DNA of 42,879 nt from a virus. The position numbers were made by a program, and so were the translations under genes. The DNA lies in IMG/VR virus record IMGVR_UViG_3300043256_000161, positions 1 through 42,879 of that record, one strand, 5' to 3'. Numbering within the stretch: the first letter of the stretch is position 1; the number at the start of each line of letters is the position of its first letter. Shown one piece after another: positions 6,538 to 18,363 of this stretch. The notes below the pieces were generated by a model. That model made no database searches. It was not told the origin of the DNA and saw nothing but the letters and a program-made list of their open reading frames with translations.

Positions 6538-6735
6538 GTGGAGAAATGTCCGAAAGACGGTAGCACCTTAACAGGATGGGAGGATCGTCCATTTTGTTCG
6601 ATCTTCCTGCCCTGCCCACAGTGTCACGTTGTATGGATTTACAGCGGGATCAACAAACCCCTAGAGGATGCTAGAGACGTACTTGATCCGGCTATCCCTT
6701 GGAACAAGCCAATCCTAGCAGGAGGAAAAGTATGA
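6538..6735 (+). CDS. Zinc-binding protein (65 aa)
   Basis: A 65-aa protein with C4, C20 and CPQC (26-29), a likely single zinc site. The GTG start at 6538 has a GGAGGG ribosome site about 8-9 bases upstream. The stop overlaps the next ATG (ATGA). Function unknown. Confidence 0.7.
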   Translation: MEKCPKDGSTLTGWEDRPFCSIFLPCPQCHVVWIYSGINKPLEDARDVLDPAIPWNKPILAGGKV

Positions 6736-6950
6736 GTCACCACTACGAGACTTGGCAGTTTAAGGCGGCTCGCCGCGAAAGCATCATTGGCATCCTTGAA
6801 GATGCGGTTGGCGCCCTAAAAGCAGCCCGTTGGGAGGATGCCCGAGATGGGGCATCTACCGCGGCTGGATGTATTAACTCTGAGTTTGTACAAGCACTTC
6901 GGGAGAAGCGACGCGACGCCAATTCACAGATAAGCCATCGGACGGATTAG
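6732..6950 (+). CDS. Hypothetical helical protein (72 aa)
   Basis: A 72-aa, mostly alpha-helical, charged protein of unknown function. The ATG at 6732 follows a GGAGGAAAAG ribosome site and overlaps the upstream TGA. An earlier in-frame start at 6699 would overlap the upstream gene by 37 bases and lacks such a site. Confidence 0.75.
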   Translation: MSHHYETWQFKAARRESIIGILEDAVGALKAARWEDARDGASTAAGCINSEFVQALREKRRDANSQISHRTD

Positions 6951-6966
6951 CAGGAGGGAAACCAGC

Positions 6967-7248
6967 ATGACAGACAAGCATACGCCTGGGCCGTGGGTAG
7001 GAAGTGCGAATGTTCACGGGTTAGTTCATCAGCGCAACAAGCCGTATAACATCGTCGTAGACTTGCAATGGCCTCAGTTGATGACAGCGACAGAAATCGA
7101 CGCTAACGCCCGCCTCATCGCCGCCGCACCAGAACTGCTAGAGGAGCTGGAGTACATCGTTGAAATGCTAGCAAACGGTGCAATGCCTTCAGGCTCCGAC
7201 ATCACCAATGGGCGCGCCGCCATTAAGGCCGCGAAGGGGGACGCATGA
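6967..7248 (+). CDS. Phage early protein with 'TPGPW ... LIAAAPELL' pattern
   Basis: A 93-aa protein opening with HTPGPW and holding a central NARLIAAAPELLEELE segment. Small proteins with these two blocks are very common in the early regions of tailed phages; their function is not established. A strong AGGAGGG ribosome site precedes the ATG. The downstream gene overlaps by ATGA. Confidence 0.85.
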   Translation: MTDKHTPGPWVGSANVHGLVHQRNKPYNIVVDLQWPQLMTATEIDANARLIAAAPELLEELEYIVEMLANGAMPSGSDITNGRAAIKAAKGDA

Positions 7249-11720: not shown

Positions 11721-12016
11721 CGTTGTCTCCTATAGGCGCAGAGGCAACAGTGGTCATCCTTACTCATAGGTGCGCCAGGGTGAACTTCAAATAGGCGGTC
11801 ATCTATGACTCGGTAGGTCACTGGGAGAACTGACTGCTCTAGGTCGAGCGCAATCGCAAACGCGTAGTCGCAGGCTAAGTTCCCGTGCTCAGGCTGTGAG
11901 CAGGACGGACAGTAGCGTGGCGTCACGTCCGCTGTGCCGCTGATGGGCCAGTGCAGGAAGCCCTCCTTGTCGTACCAAGCGCCTAACGATGTGGCGTAAT
12001 CAAGCGAGATGCTCAC
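11717..12016 (-). CDS. Zinc-binding protein (99 aa)
   Basis: A 99-aa protein with CPSC (36-39), C49, and CCLC near the C-terminus (about 90-93). It starts with GTG at 12016 after a GGGGGTGA stretch. The stop overlaps the amidase start. No known family; it might modulate lysis timing given its coupling to the endolysin, but that is speculation. Confidence 0.7.
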   Translation of the reverse strand: MSISLDYATSLGAWYDKEGFLHWPISGTADVTPRYCPSCSQPEHGNLACDYAFAIALDLEQSVLPVTYRVIDDRLFEVHPGAPMSKDDHCCLCAYRRQR

Positions 12017-12044
12017 GGCTCACCCCCAGGGGCACAGAGGGGAA

Positions 12045-12218
12045 TCAAGAGGGCACCCACACAGAGCTTGTGCTCGCTGTTGTAGTGAGACGTTCTTCTA
12101 GGACAGTGCCGCAAGTGGCGCACCACAACCTAGTGTAGACTTCACCCATGTGGCCCTTCGTGTCCCAGCGGTAGGCGACGTCGCGGTAGCATTTCGGGCA
12201 AAACCGCCAGTTGCTCAT
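12045..12218 (-). CDS. Zinc-ribbon protein (57 aa)
   Basis: A 57-aa protein with CPKC (7-10) and CATC (33-36) separated by a beta-rich spacer, a classic zinc ribbon, then a Ser/Thr-rich tail. It is coupled to the upstream 64-aa gene (ATGA). Function unknown. Confidence 0.75.
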   Translation of the reverse strand: MSNWRFCPKCYRDVAYRWDTKGHMGEVYTRLWCATCGTVLEERLTTTASTSSVWVPS

Positions 12219-12409
12219 CGCCTGCTCCGCACTACCCGCTCCGCCTCCCTAACCGCAGGCTCAGCACGAAGCCACTCAGGAATGTCCACTGGGGCGGGTG
12301 GTAGGCGCCGGACATGAGACTTGGAGTTCTCCGTAGGTAACTTGGAGTCCTCTGCCCCGTCGACGGGCGCAGGAAACCAGAACTCTAGCAAGTCCTCTAA
12401 CCAGCACAT
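12215..12409 (-). CDS. Hypothetical Pro-rich protein (64 aa)
   Basis: A 64-aa protein with a hydrophobic aromatic N-terminus (CWLEDLLEFWFPAPV) and an Arg-rich C-terminus. The ATG at 12409 lacks a clear ribosome site and follows a 98-bp gap containing a GCGGG/CCCGC hairpin. No family recognised. Confidence 0.55.
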   Translation of the reverse strand: MCWLEDLLEFWFPAPVDGAEDSKLPTENSKSHVRRLPPAPVDIPEWLRAEPAVREAERVVRSRR

Positions 12410-14309: not shown

Positions 14310-14416
14310 TACAGCTTCTTCCCGCAGCTACAGTACGGCTGTCCGCAGGATATGCTGTAACCACACTGGGGACAGAACCGACAGATGTGAATAGCCTTTG
14401 GTGTGCGTTTCATCAT
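14309..14416 (-). CDS. Cys-rich zinc microprotein (35 aa)
   Basis: A 35-aa basic protein with six Cys in order CxxC-PxC...C...CxC, enough for one or two zinc sites. It has two adjacent ATGs, and the first overlaps the RusA-like gene's TGA. Its stop overlaps the next ATG. Confidence 0.7.
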   Translation of the reverse strand: MMKRTPKAIHICRFCPQCGYSISCGQPYCSCGKKL

Positions 14417-15093
14417 TCCCCTCCATTTCGATATGGGCTCAACTCCACAATGACCTTCTTCTCCGGCCCCCGCTCCCACTTCGGCTCCGCTATCTTTAGC
14501 TTGTCGTGGGAGTCGTCCTCCAGCACACCCACCTCGACAAAGGCGTCAAAACACGGTTTTAGCATCGCCAAAAAATTATCCGTATCACGTCGCCGATCAT
14601 CAACCACCATAAACGTCACCTGGGCCTGAACGGGCGCGGCCAAGCGTGCCTCCGCACAAACGATCTTCTCTGGCATCCGCCGTCGCCGGTCATGCCATTT
14701 CGCAACAATGATCCACCCACAGTCTTCTCGATACTCCCGCCTTACCCGCGCTAGCGTCCGCCAATGCACCCTCGCGTTCGGGGACAATTCCTTTGGAGGC
14801 CAAGGGAACTCATATTTACTCACCTTTGCTTTCCTCATGGGCTTTATAGGCTCAGACCAGCGTGGGTCTCTCGTGGCGGCACCATCTTTCTTTCGCGCAG
14901 ATCGCCACGGCCCACCTTGCCCTAGTTTTCGCCACTGCTCCTCACAAACTGGATTCTGGCATTCCCACTCCCAAAACTCGTCGGCATCGATTGGAGGAGG
15001 GTCTGCTTCTGTGTGACTGGCAAACTGGGCCTTCCTGCCAGTCGGCTTGAGGGTATCTTGGTGGCAGTTAGGGCACCAATTAGGACTCTTCAT
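14413..15093 (-). CDS. RusA-type Holliday-junction resolvase with N-terminal zinc ribbon
   Basis: A 226-aa protein. Residues 96-220 match the RusA fold: LSPNARVHWR (103-112), a beta strand, then RRRDTDNFLAMLKPCFDAF (about 167-185) with Asp170 and Asp172, and LEDDSHDKL (191-199) with Asp193/194. These acidic residues are the metal-binding, catalytic ones in RusA. It would cut four-way junctions during phage recombination or debranch DNA before packaging. Residues 7-50 hold CPNC and C..C pairs, an added zinc ribbon not found in E. coli RusA. It overlaps the upstream gene by 14 bases. Confidence 0.85.
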   Translation of the reverse strand: MKSPNWCPNCHQDTLKPTGRKAQFASHTEADPPPIDADEFWEWECQNPVCEEQWRKLGQGGPWRSARKKDGAATRDPRWSEPIKPMRKAKVSKYEFPWPPKELSPNARVHWRTLARVRREYREDCGWIIVAKWHDRRRRMPEKIVCAEARLAAPVQAQVTFMVVDDRRRDTDNFLAMLKPCFDAFVEVGVLEDDSHDKLKIAEPKWERGPEKKVIVELSPYRNGGE

Positions 15094-15280
15094 CCCACAC
15101 TCGTTCTTGCTGATACTTAACCGGCACGCTCTGTAGCGTCTCCTTTATGTTGAAGCTGTAGAAGTCGCCGTTGGAGTACCACTTCACACGCCCACACTTC
15201 AGACAACCCGCGACGGACTCAGGGCCGTCCGGCGGCGCAATCCTGTCGTGGTGGATGCAAGGCGGGGCTTCGGTTGTCAT
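15080..15280 (-). CDS. Zinc-binding protein (66 aa)
   Basis: A 66-aa protein with CIHHD and CLKC (about 26-29), a likely Cys/His zinc site. The ATG at 15280 overlaps the lysozyme gene's TGA; another ATG two codons upstream is possible. Function unknown. Confidence 0.65.
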   Translation of the reverse strand: MTTEAPPCIHHDRIAPPDGPESVAGCLKCGRVKWYSNGDFYSFNIKETLQSVPVKYQQERVWDEES

Positions 15281-15888
15281 TGCCATCTACACGCCGGCCA
15301 CGGGCTTGTGTTCACTCCACCCCCCGATAATTCCCAGGCGACGAGGGTGTTGTTACGCGGCTCCTTAAGCCAGTCAGCTCCGTAGCCGTGGCCGAGCCAC
15401 ACTTGAAACAGACCCACATAACGGCCTCCATATCCAACGGCGTATGGTCGCAAGCCGCTCTCGCAATAGGCCACACCGATCCAGTAGGCGCATCCTTGCG
15501 GCCAGTCGAAGGAGCAGATGATGCCCCGAAGTGCCGCACCACTGTCCCTTGAGCCTTCTTCCTCCGATCCCGCTGCTCTTGTCGCCAAGCTTTCTTGGCT
15601 AGGAGTCGGTGTACGTCTTGGTGAGGGCAGAACAGGTGAAGGAAGCGGAACAAGGCGCGCATCAGCTAGTACCCAATAGGGGGAAACGGCTCCGCTTCCT
15701 TCAGAAACTTCGCTTGCTTGTCCTTTGGAAGCTGCTTGAATAGAAACATGACTATATCCGCCAAGCTCACCATCTTCTCGCCCGATTCCGTCTCGAACGT
15801 TATCGCTGTAACCATCATTCTCTCCCCTCAGCCCCAGCACCAGCCCCACAATCATCCCCGCCGTGAGGCAGGCCAGAAGCCACTTAAT
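15277..15888 (-). CDS. Membrane-anchored lysozyme/transglycosylase-like enzyme
   Basis: The C-terminal ~80 residues carry a lysozyme-like muralytic domain: AYCESGLRPYAVG with the catalytic Glu, YVGLFQVW, then NNTLVAWELSGGG and a terminal W.AC.W. The frame stays open upstream through a Pro/Ser-rich linker (PLPSPVLPSPRRTPTPS) to a hydrophobic segment (KWLLACLTAGMIVGLVLGL) that would be a signal-anchor. An ATT codon at 15888-15886 overlaps the upstream TAA and follows GAAGG at proper spacing; the first ATG (15855) cuts the anchor in half. Another frame inside this gene also looks coding (15666-15818), so the true N-terminus is uncertain. Confidence 0.6.
   Translation of the reverse strand: MKWLLACLTAGMIVGLVLGLRGENDGYSDNVRDGIGREDGELGGYSHVSIQAASKGQASEVSEGSGAVSPYWVLADARLVPLPSPVLPSPRRTPTPSQESLATRAAGSEEEGSRDSGAALRGIICSFDWPQGCAYWIGVAYCESGLRPYAVGYGGRYVGLFQVWLGHGYGADWLKEPRNNTLVAWELSGGGVNTSPWPACRWQ
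15666..15818 (-). CDS. Embedded small protein (50 aa)
   Basis: A 50-aa frame inside the linker region of the lysozyme gene in another reading frame. It encodes a plausible folded protein: a beta strand (TAITFETESGE) then amphipathic helices (SLADIVMFLFKQLPKDKQAKFLKEA). A strong GGGGAGAG ribosome site precedes the ATG pair. It looks more gene-like than the overlapping lysozyme linker, so either the two truly overlap or the lysozyme starts later than proposed. Confidence 0.5.
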   Translation of the reverse strand: MMVTAITFETESGEKMVSLADIVMFLFKQLPKDKQAKFLKEAEPFPPIGY

Positions 15889-16045: not shown

Positions 16046-16056
16046 CATTCACCCTC

Positions 16057-16070
16057 CCATCACGATATGC
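16057..16070. repeat. Palindromic element CCATNWCGWNATGG, early-operon copy
   Basis: CCATCACGATATGC, one mismatch to consensus. It lies in the 115-bp gap before the 53-aa zinc-ribbon gene, 8 bases from a separate hairpin. Confidence 0.5.
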
Positions 16071-16077
16071 ACCAACT

Positions 16078-16107
16078 TTCTCGTGAGATTGAAAATCGAA
16101 ACGAGAA
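16078..16107. promoter_or_regulatory. Nested inverted repeat
   Basis: TTCTCGT and ACGAGAA pair (7 bp). The loop holds a second small pair, GATT/AATC. It lies in the only sizeable gap (16046-16160) of this operon segment, with no U-tract. A minus-strand TATAAC about 25 bases upstream could be a -10, but no good -35 accompanies it. Confidence 0.4.
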
Positions 16108-16160
16108 ATTGGCTATTACCGTACGTACCGTTATAAGCAAGTCCATACCTAGTAACAGAA

Positions 16161-16544
16161 TTACGCACCGTTTCTGTCTCTGAGTCTGTTTTCTGTATCT
16201 GTATCTGGGGGTGTTTCTGTAACGTTTCCTGTAACACCCTTACGGTGTTTCTTTACGCGGGGGGTAACGTTGTCACTGGTGAACTGCCGGCCGTTCCAGT
16301 TGTGGGGAACCAGACCTGTAGGAGTCCTATCGAATAGGCCAGCACGACTCAAGGCAGCCATGTCTAAATCAACACGCGTACGCCCCATGCGCAGCGCGTA
16401 GGCAACCTGAGACACTGGAGGCACAACCCCTTTGTTCTTCGCAGCTAGGCAGAGCACGTTTATCCAGAGCTTGAAGAGCCGCGCTGGCAAGGTTTGCACC
16501 TTCGGGTCTTCCGCCACTTCGTAGTAGAACCGAAACCACTTCAC
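16161..16544 (-). CDS. Phage replication protein, DnaD/winged-helix type
   Basis: A 127-aa protein opening KWFRFYYEVAEDPKVQTL, the typical start of phage replisome-organiser N-terminal winged-helix domains. About residues 20-75 form the winged helix (PPVSQVAYALR...LSRAGLF), followed by HNWNGRQFTSDN and an Arg/Lys patch. The C-terminus ends in a PPDTDTE block, as seen in longer members before a C-terminal helicase-loader domain that is absent here. It probably marks the origin or recruits host replication proteins. The GTG start directly follows the upstream TAA with AAAGG at 10 bases. Confidence 0.75.
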   Translation of the reverse strand: MKWFRFYYEVAEDPKVQTLPARLFKLWINVLCLAAKNKGVVPPVSQVAYALRMGRTRVDLDMAALSRAGLFDRTPTGLVPHNWNGRQFTSDNVTPRVKKHRKGVTGNVTETPPDTDTENRLRDRNGA

Positions 16545-16926: not shown

Positions 16927-17144
16927 CGCCCGTTCCTACGTCGCCAAAAATACGCCTTCCTACCCTGTTCGGTCTGCCCTTCAACCATCTCAATCAATCC
17001 CTCTGCCTCAGCAGCCCAAAGGTGCCCGATAGCCGTCTGGAAAGTAACACCAGCCTGCCCAGCTATCTCTTTCGCCATGATGCAATCGCATCCCACCTGA
17101 GCCAATACAGCCTCTCTTGCAGACCGCGCAGAGAACTTGCTCAT
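16923..17144 (-). CDS. Small winged-helix DNA-binding protein (73 aa)
   Basis: A 73-aa protein: helices (SAREAVLAQV), an HTH (AKEIAGQAGVTFQTAIGHLWAA), then a wing-like hairpin ending KAYFWRRRNG. This is the layout of a minimal winged-helix regulator. The start at 17144 is chosen because it overlaps the HNH gene's TGA; an upstream in-frame start at 17162 would lie inside that gene. It could regulate the early operon. Confidence 0.7.
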   Translation of the reverse strand: MSKFSARSAREAVLAQVGCDCIMAKEIAGQAGVTFQTAIGHLWAAEAEGLIEMVEGQTEQGRKAYFWRRRNGR

Positions 17145-18052
17145 CGCTGCTCTCCTAGCCAATCAAGGAAGAAATCAATTGCTTCGGTATAGGTAGACCG
17201 TGGCGGCTCAGGATAGCCATTAAGGAACTGCTCTGCCTTAGAAAGCAGCTCCTCTAGCATCCAGCGCTGGGTGCTCTTGGATGGGCCGTGCACCTGACGC
17301 CGAAACTCCGCGACCGACCATCCCTCGTCCTCGCACTCTTTCAACCTAAGCACTTGGTCTTCGCGGAGCAGTTGGTAGACCACGACGTGGTGGGAGTAGC
17401 GTAGGTTCCCATTTCGATATGGCGGCGGGATGGCCGCGCAGACACGCAGAATGTTCGCCAGGGATTCGTGGACGTAGCCGAAGTCAGAGAGGTACTGCTC
17501 CGCCTCTTCGCCCAACTCCGCTATCCAGGCGTTCCCCGTGTCGCCCGCGATCCACTGGCGGTTCCACTCCGCGTTCTTTATGTCCTGGGCGATTGCTACG
17601 CGCTGTTCGTGGGTTAGCCCAGCGCTGGGTGCTGCCGCCGAGGAGGGTTGAGGGGGCGGAGGCTGAGGATCATCCGCGCCCCTAGACAACAGGGCCTCAG
17701 CACCCTCGTCCGCTCCCCCCTCAGCAGCAGCACTCAGAACTGGATCGCTTTCCTCCTTGCTCAGTAGGACTCGCTCTACTACGGTTTTCCCATGCAGGTC
17801 GAAGTAGACGTAGGTCAGTCCGCGAGGAAGGTCAAGAATGTCATCAGAGCACTCGTGCAGCGTCACCATCTCGTGGTGAAAATGGCAGAGCGCGACTACA
17901 TTTAGTGGGTCGTCTCGTCGCTCCTTTGAGCCTCCCATGCCCCGCGACTTGACATGATGGTGCTCAATCGTGTTGTTCTGGCAGACAAAGCAGCGGTGCC
18001 AGTCAGGATCAGACGGCGCGGGACAGTAGGAGACGGTGCAGAGAGCGGTCAC
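17141..18052 (-). CDS. HNH nuclease fused to a ParB-like C-terminal region
   Basis: A 303-aa protein. Residues ~20-65 form an HNH/beta-beta-alpha-metal site: CFVC, EHHHVKSRGMGG, then NVVALCHFHH. A Pro/Ala-rich linker (about 115-145) leads to a C-terminal region with NILRVCAAIP, LRYSHHVVVYQL, and EGWSVAEFRRQVHG. This recalls the HTH part of ParB/KorB-like or DUF3102-like proteins. It may be a site-directed nuclease for recombination, packaging or host-DNA attack. The GTG at 18052 is chosen for its GTGA overlap; an ATG lies eight codons upstream at 18076. Confidence 0.75.
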   Translation of the reverse strand: MTALCTVSYCPAPSDPDWHRCFVCQNNTIEHHHVKSRGMGGSKERRDDPLNVVALCHFHHEMVTLHECSDDILDLPRGLTYVYFDLHGKTVVERVLLSKEESDPVLSAAAEGGADEGAEALLSRGADDPQPPPPQPSSAAAPSAGLTHEQRVAIAQDIKNAEWNRQWIAGDTGNAWIAELGEEAEQYLSDFGYVHESLANILRVCAAIPPPYRNGNLRYSHHVVVYQLLREDQVLRLKECEDEGWSVAEFRRQVHGPSKSTQRWMLEELLSKAEQFLNGYPEPPRSTYTEAIDFFLDWLGEQR

Positions 18053-18363
18053 GGCCCCTGCCCCGTTCTCACCCATTCAGCCCCGCGCTCAAATGCCGTT
18101 TGGGCTTCGGCGGGGTCGTCGGTTTCAACATCAGTTATCAAAGGGCCATAACCCTGCGGCAAGTTCATTTCTGGATGGAATCCAAGCCAAGAGCCACTTC
18201 GCCTAGTGAGGCTGGTAAAAACTATAAATCTCGGCGAGCCAAGATGGCTGCAAGGCTTGCGATCAATGAACCAAGCTCGGCGGCCATCAAAGCAGGCCAG
18301 TTGTAGGCACGGCGGCAGGCCCTCTGCGGGTGCGCGGACGTTGCTCACAACGGGGTCACTCAC
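18049..18363 (-). CDS. Hypothetical protein (104 aa)
   Basis: A 104-aa mixed alpha/beta protein of unknown function with a C-terminal helical acidic segment (DDPAEAQTAFERGAEW). The GTG start overlaps the preceding TGA and its own stop overlaps the HNH gene's GTG. It sits between the 235-aa protein and the nuclease. Confidence 0.75.
   Translation of the reverse strand: MSDPVVSNVRAPAEGLPPCLQLACFDGRRAWFIDRKPCSHLGSPRFIVFTSLTRRSGSWLGFHPEMNLPQGYGPLITDVETDDPAEAQTAFERGAEWVRTGQGP

Follow-up and report, generated by a model that had tools for sequence, protein, structure and literature searches.

Can one stretch of phage DNA encode the linker of a lysis enzyme and, in another frame, small proteins that have nothing to do with it? 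This question was raised by a locus in a tailed-phage virus record of IMG/VR (labelled G000), the whole 42,879 bases of which are referred to here as the window. The locus belongs to a series of small minus-strand genes that is flanked by a replication-initiation-like gene (16161-16544) and a RusA-like gene (14413-15093). A preliminary description had listed a lysozyme frame of 204 codons, a 50-codon ORF with its own ribosome site, and a third frame from 15662, and had offered genuine overprinting, a lysozyme made from another start, or frameshifting as explanations. From sequence comparison, we consider it likely that this is same-strand overprinting, in which exchangeable small genes occupy the disordered linker of the lysozyme.

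Four relatives with the same lysozyme gene were recovered, G001 (L002/L005), G002 (L070/L108), G008 (L086) and G015 (L072/L075), and these were reached through the virion protein and by local profile searches. When IMG/VR contigs were searched with the window lysozyme and with the product of a nested frame, C (see below), only a single match was found at first. No additional member was detected when 31-32 further related records were scanned with the catalytic domain and with the CPH block of C, none was found in bacterial and archaeal genomes scanned with the virion protein and an HNH protein, and lysozyme profile scans and a tail-protein scan returned no members beyond those known. Three DNA-pattern matches (L113, L115 and L116) represented an unrelated gene and were discarded. 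A pattern scan of viral contigs omitted G008 despite an exact match at L086 7769-7789, so that such scans can miss records. The comparison set consisted of five genomes only, and as these are related and mosaic, counts across the phages are not independent.

Several short conserved blocks were observed elsewhere in the window. The segments 14411-14476, 12011-12047, 12211-12265 and 17907-17965 (37-66 bp) are 78-95% identical to G001, several of them near gene borders, and the occurrence of such blocks in otherwise unalignable genomes suggests recombination borders or shared signals. A 66-bp block upstream of the small-gene run (16053-16118) is 87% identical to G001 and folds as a hairpin, in which matching changes on the two sides leave the stem paired (TTTCTCGT/ACGAGAAA vs TTTTTCGT/ACGAAAAA); it had no match in Rfam.

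The lysozyme frame and its start

The lysozyme-like ORF (15277-15888, minus strand) is open from 15888 to its stop at 15279-15277, a length of 203 sense codons and not the 204 first counted (209 from stop to stop), and, as had been described, it carries anchor, linker and catalytic domain in a single frame. It begins with an N-terminal hydrophobic anchor, IKWLLACLTAGMIVGLVLGLRGE (15820-15888), a hydrophobic anchor occupying this position in each of the five phages, continues through a disordered, Ser/Gly/Pro-rich linker, and ends in an SLT/lysozyme-like catalytic domain with the signature CESG...YVGLFQV...PWPAC; a homologous layout was present in G001, G002, G008 and G015. A profile match (PF18896) covers residues 131-197 (15298-15498), and the CES triplet of the domain (15465-15457), which provides the context of the catalytic Glu, is invariant in the five phages, as is the downstream G-L-x-Q motif. 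Against Pfam SLT_3 the window domain gave only a weak match (E = 3.5e-4; 21.4 bits, below the gathering score of 27 bits), while the homologue of G008 scored 44.6 bits against the SLT profile, above its cut-off of 21.3. We read the protein as a putative lysozyme/transglycosylase that belongs to the lysis module and is held in the membrane by its anchor, with a linker that would lie outside the cytoplasm. The AlphaFold model (pLDDT 38) was confident only for a predicted helix, 2-19, and was too poor to be used for a fold search.

SAR endolysins are distinguished by an uncleaved N-terminal segment that is weakly hydrophobic, rich in Gly and Ala, and able to leave the membrane. The segment IKWLLACLTAGMIVGLVLGL is present at the N terminus of the lysozyme, and its signal-anchor is possibly of the SAR type.

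How the frame is initiated is less obvious. It contains no ATG, GTG or TTG before 15855, and the ATG at that position lies inside the anchor, so either the full anchor requires a non-canonical start or half of it is lost; the earlier suggestion that the lysozyme is made from another start is thus probably right. The best-fitting candidate is the ATT at 15888-15886, which overlaps the TAA of the upstream gene (CATTAAG) and is preceded by GGAGAAGG, and it is probably here that the lysozyme begins. Across the phages the non-canonical start is not one conserved codon, and its Shine-Dalgarno (SD) sequence is only moderate. Initiation at ATT may be coupled to the stop within CATTAAG, and a weak lysozyme start combined with the strong start of the nested ORF B would yield less lysozyme than B, which would be sensible for a lysis enzyme.

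Nested reading frames in the lysozyme linker

ORF B (15666-15818, minus strand) comprises 50 codons in the +1 frame relative to the lysozyme. The ribosome site reported for it is indeed there: just upstream of its ATG is the SD sequence AGGGGAGA (15821-15828), embedded in lysozyme codons, and the start position that is conserved across the phages corresponds to the second ATG of the window ORF, at 15815. The end of the anchor, the SD and the B start together form conserved block 1 (15812-15873), in which 62 bp of DNA are 92% identical to G002. The codon usage of B is like that of the long genes of the phage, with a score above those of all 3000 lysozyme-preserving shuffles (0/3000, P < 1/3000), and across the same segment the codon usage of the lysozyme frame is not gene-like. 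AlphaFold, run on the single B sequence, predicted a hairpin and two helices (pLDDT 75), which offers weak support for a real protein. The supposed third frame from 15662 is the frame of B itself, resumed as ORF C after an intervening TAG CTG. Numerous stops close the one frame left over, and the locus is one in which two frames compete, not three.

Judged from the window alone, a single nested SD-ORF is not beyond chance. Synonymous shuffling gave an expectation of 5.1 nested SD-ORFs against 6 seen, the probability that the B frame is open given the lysozyme peptide was 0.31 in the window (0.16-0.53 per genome), and the C frame was open in 8% of shuffles. Over the five genomes, 38 nested ORFs were seen against about 25 expected, but only G001 exceeded all of its own shuffles (10 against a maximum of 9), and a genome-wide excess was rejected as a basis for the argument. 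Significance rests on the comparison with relatives, and the case on the conserved slots.

This comparison revealed a layout common to all five phages, with the anchor followed by a nested SD and ATG in the +1 frame, then the linker, and then the catalytic domain. In each case GGAG and, a few bases later, the ATG stand directly after the anchor: AGGGGAGAGAATGATG in the window, AGAGGAGAGAACGATG in G002, ATTGGAGGGACGGATG in G001, ATAGGAGGGAACGATG in G008 and GCAGGAGGAAGCGATG in G015. Read in the lysozyme frame, these bases specify GENDG (window and G002), GGTDG (G001), GGNDG (G008) or GGSDG (G015). The probability of an SD-like tetramer plus ATG, given the peptide and the codon usage, was 0.09 for the window, 0.10 for G002, 0.03 for G001, 0.035 for G008 and 0.06 for G015, making a joint probability of 6e-7 for all five, or about 7e-5 for the distant relatives G001, G008 and G015 alone. 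The start signal of the slot has been kept beyond what the lysozyme peptide requires.

What follows this start is not conserved. The B proteins are unrelated between phages, and neither that of the window nor those of the relatives had relatives in the databases. The window product (50 aa) corresponds in position to one of 31 aa in G002, resembling a RanBP2-like zinc ribbon at a sub-threshold level (E = 0.05), one of 40 aa in G008 that is rich in Cys and His, one of 44 aa in G001, and one of 109 aa in G015 with a single membrane segment, the transmembrane (TM) character of which is unlikely given the host frame (P = 0.0016). Within the slot of G001 it was the lysozyme frame that appeared coding-like (P = 0.002) and not the B frame, so that B may be weak or spurious there, and codon usage showed no significant preference for B in G002 and G015. 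The preliminary description had proposed that relatives be checked for stops or frameshifts, and the lysozyme frame was found to be open across the slot in every one of the five phages, including 109 codons in G015; the probabilities of an open lysozyme frame given the B protein were 0.023, 0.13, 0.34, 0.50 and 0.016. Two comparison lysozymes, from G003 and from the Manatee Spring phage MW202577 (lyZ1), have the same anchor-linker-domain plan and no nested ORF, showing that the plan alone does not create one. The proposal of genuine overprinting is, for B, supported by the nested start conserved in five phages, the codon usage in the window, and the existence of lysozymes without a nested ORF.

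For ORF C (15312-15662, minus strand; 116 codons open), overprinting is only moderately supported. Its N terminus, FxFLHxxCPHxDxH, is conserved, the remainder being uncertain: the window, G001 and G002 all have F-x-F-L-H...C-P-H-x-D-x-H, G008 has a form close to it and G015 is without C, and the DNA of the motif was absent from all other related records searched (n = 31). In four of the five phages B ends in a TAG by the ATG of C, adjoining it in three and three bases apart in the window. The CPHxDxH part of the motif falls within block 2 (15604-15650), 47 bp with 96% identity to G001, which encodes Pro-rich linker in the lysozyme frame and CPHQDVH in frame C. When conserved lysozyme residues were compared pairwise, the codon was unchanged in 27 of 32 cases in this block and in 55 of 123 for the catalytic domain. 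The two positions of the 47 bp at which the window and G001 differ are both silent in frame C and non-silent in the lysozyme frame. This fits selection on the N terminus of C, but a conserved recombination signal, or some other signal at the DNA level, would give the same pattern, hence the moderate grading. Where C overlaps the catalytic domain, no convincing conservation was seen. The distance from the B start to the Cys codon of C is 186, 123, 189 or 144 nt, a multiple of three in all four phages that have both blocks.

A linker that tolerates nearly any sequence could, then, also carry one or two small genes in its +1 frame. B would initiate at its own strong SD, set into the Gly-Gly/Glu-Asn/Ser/Thr-Asp-Gly codons of the lysozyme just past the anchor, and C directly after the B stop (TAG-ATG), probably by translational coupling; both are presumably translated. 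The B segment appears to have been swapped for small genes unrelated to one another, with both flanking blocks, the start signal of B and the open lysozyme frame retained, which would make the linker an exchange slot. A variable B between conserved flanks suggests recombinational exchange, presumably at the flanks themselves, which are short; the genomes are mosaic and have other conserved blocks of 37-71 bp at gene borders.

A second slot and the competing explanations

A comparable arrangement was found in the linker of an HNH-type protein. G002 has a 49-aa, two-helix membrane ORF (L108 13175-13026, minus strand) and G008 a 26-aa, one-helix membrane ORF (L086 5291-5371, plus strand), both in the +1 frame of this linker, and both beginning at GAGGAGGAAAGCGATG, where the host peptide reads EEESDG. 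From the host peptides alone, products as hydrophobic as these would not be expected (P = 0.004 for G002; 0 of 5000 for G008). These small TM genes recall holins, and no family match was found for them. The window homologue (17141-18076) seems to hold a relic of the slot, AAGGAGGAAAGCGATC (17743-17758, minus strand), in which the SD persists, ATC stands for the ATG of the relatives, and a stop follows three codons on. Nested small genes thus appear to have occupied linkers at two places in this phage group, with one of them decayed in the window.

A further possible nested membrane ORF, MTPIDEMIATIPVWVRLLFALPTAFGLAWGVWSTRHDFS, with the SD GAGGGAGG, was noticed in G015 (L075 about 6868-6749, minus strand), inside a putative host frame (6638-7199).

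The leading alternative is that the lysozyme is the sole gene here, with nested ORFs that are chance frames in a GC-rich linker and with blocks 1 and 2 kept for the peptide or through recent recombination. The chance expectations given above are in keeping with this, nested SD-ORFs in the window being as common as in shuffles and B frames being readily open in each genome, as are B proteins without relatives. We nevertheless judge it unlikely, because the SD and ATG are retained beyond the needs of the peptide, the TAG-ATG junction is present in four of the five, the codon usage of B in the window resembles that of genes, TM ORFs occur in both slots, and the comparison lysozymes have no slot. 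The converse would be that B and C are genuine genes and that the linker is open in the lysozyme frame only by accident, with the anchor and catalytic domain made separately by an internal start, reinitiation or frameshift. A B segment that, in the window, is gene-like in its own frame and not in that of the lysozyme, together with an anchor that has no canonical start ahead of it, could be explained in this way, but the long open frame in all five slots (109 codons in G015), its low to middling probability given B (0.016-0.5), block distances in multiples of three, the better coding score of the lysozyme frame in the G001 slot, and comparison lysozymes that carry anchor, linker and domain as one protein make it very improbable.

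Least probable of all is a joining of the frames by programmed frameshifting or by readthrough of TAG, either from the upstream gene into the lysozyme by a +1 shift or as a B-C fusion. In four of the five phages the lysozyme frame does stand at +1 relative to the upstream gene and run across the stop of that gene, and B and C always share a frame. Against this, the upstream genes are unrelated between phages, the frame relation differs in G015, no common slippery heptamer was apparent on inspection by eye, and C has its own ATG. Amber suppression was rejected, as the window has no tRNA gene and TAG serves as a normal stop codon (6 of 28 long ORFs). The frameshift offered initially is in any case not needed: each of the five phages has a single uninterrupted frame from the anchor through the linker to the catalytic domain, and in the four with both blocks these stand a multiple of three apart.

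Overprinting of the lysozyme linker, the favored reading, invites a broader and more tentative one, that disordered linkers of two-domain proteins may serve as standing exchange slots in at least two host genes (lysozyme and HNH), with a fixed out-of-frame SD and start, a changing set of small genes (zinc-ribbon, membrane, helical), and a host frame that stays open. If true, a fixed start with replaceable contents would allow small genes to be gained without a longer genome. Nested ORFs are dropped by gene callers, and small phage proteins in linkers would then be systematically missed. A prediction is that linkers of multi-domain phage proteins are enriched in out-of-frame SD-ATG slots compared with their own synonymous shuffles.

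Relation to known overlapping-gene systems

The classic case from a lysis module is the spanin pair of phage lambda, also known from its relatives, where Rz1 sits within Rz at +1 (PMC6139136). B is similar in being entirely nested, again at +1, in a lysis-module gene for a membrane-anchored protein and in having its own start, in five of five phages. However, o-spanins of the Rz1 type are lipoproteins and have an i-spanin as host and partner, whereas the host in the present locus is an enzyme and its nested products differ in kind. No lipobox was found in the nested products on inspection, and B was rejected as an o-spanin for this reason.

In the ShiLan domain, an out-of-frame ORF is concealed within an insertion across which the frame of the host protein remains open (PMC11855218). 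The two are alike in having a phage host protein, a tolerated place within it, and a separate ORF in another frame; a stop-free host frame across the insertion was observed in all five lysozymes. The ORF concealed in ShiLan is for a homing endonuclease, and ShiLan has homing-element behavior, whereas the slot described here has varied tiny proteins, a conserved strong SD and ATG, and a position in a linker; profile searches found no nuclease (HNH) match for the products of B or C.

The host protein itself, in which one hydrophobic segment at the N terminus precedes a muralytic domain, resembles SAR endolysins and SLT/lysozyme-like muramidases, but it differs from plain anchored endolysins, such as those of G003 and MW202577 (lyZ1), in that the linkers of the latter are without a nested gene. 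Having neither lipobox nor nuclease, the locus is a member of neither the Rz/Rz1 nor the ShiLan type, but in its working it resembles them both.
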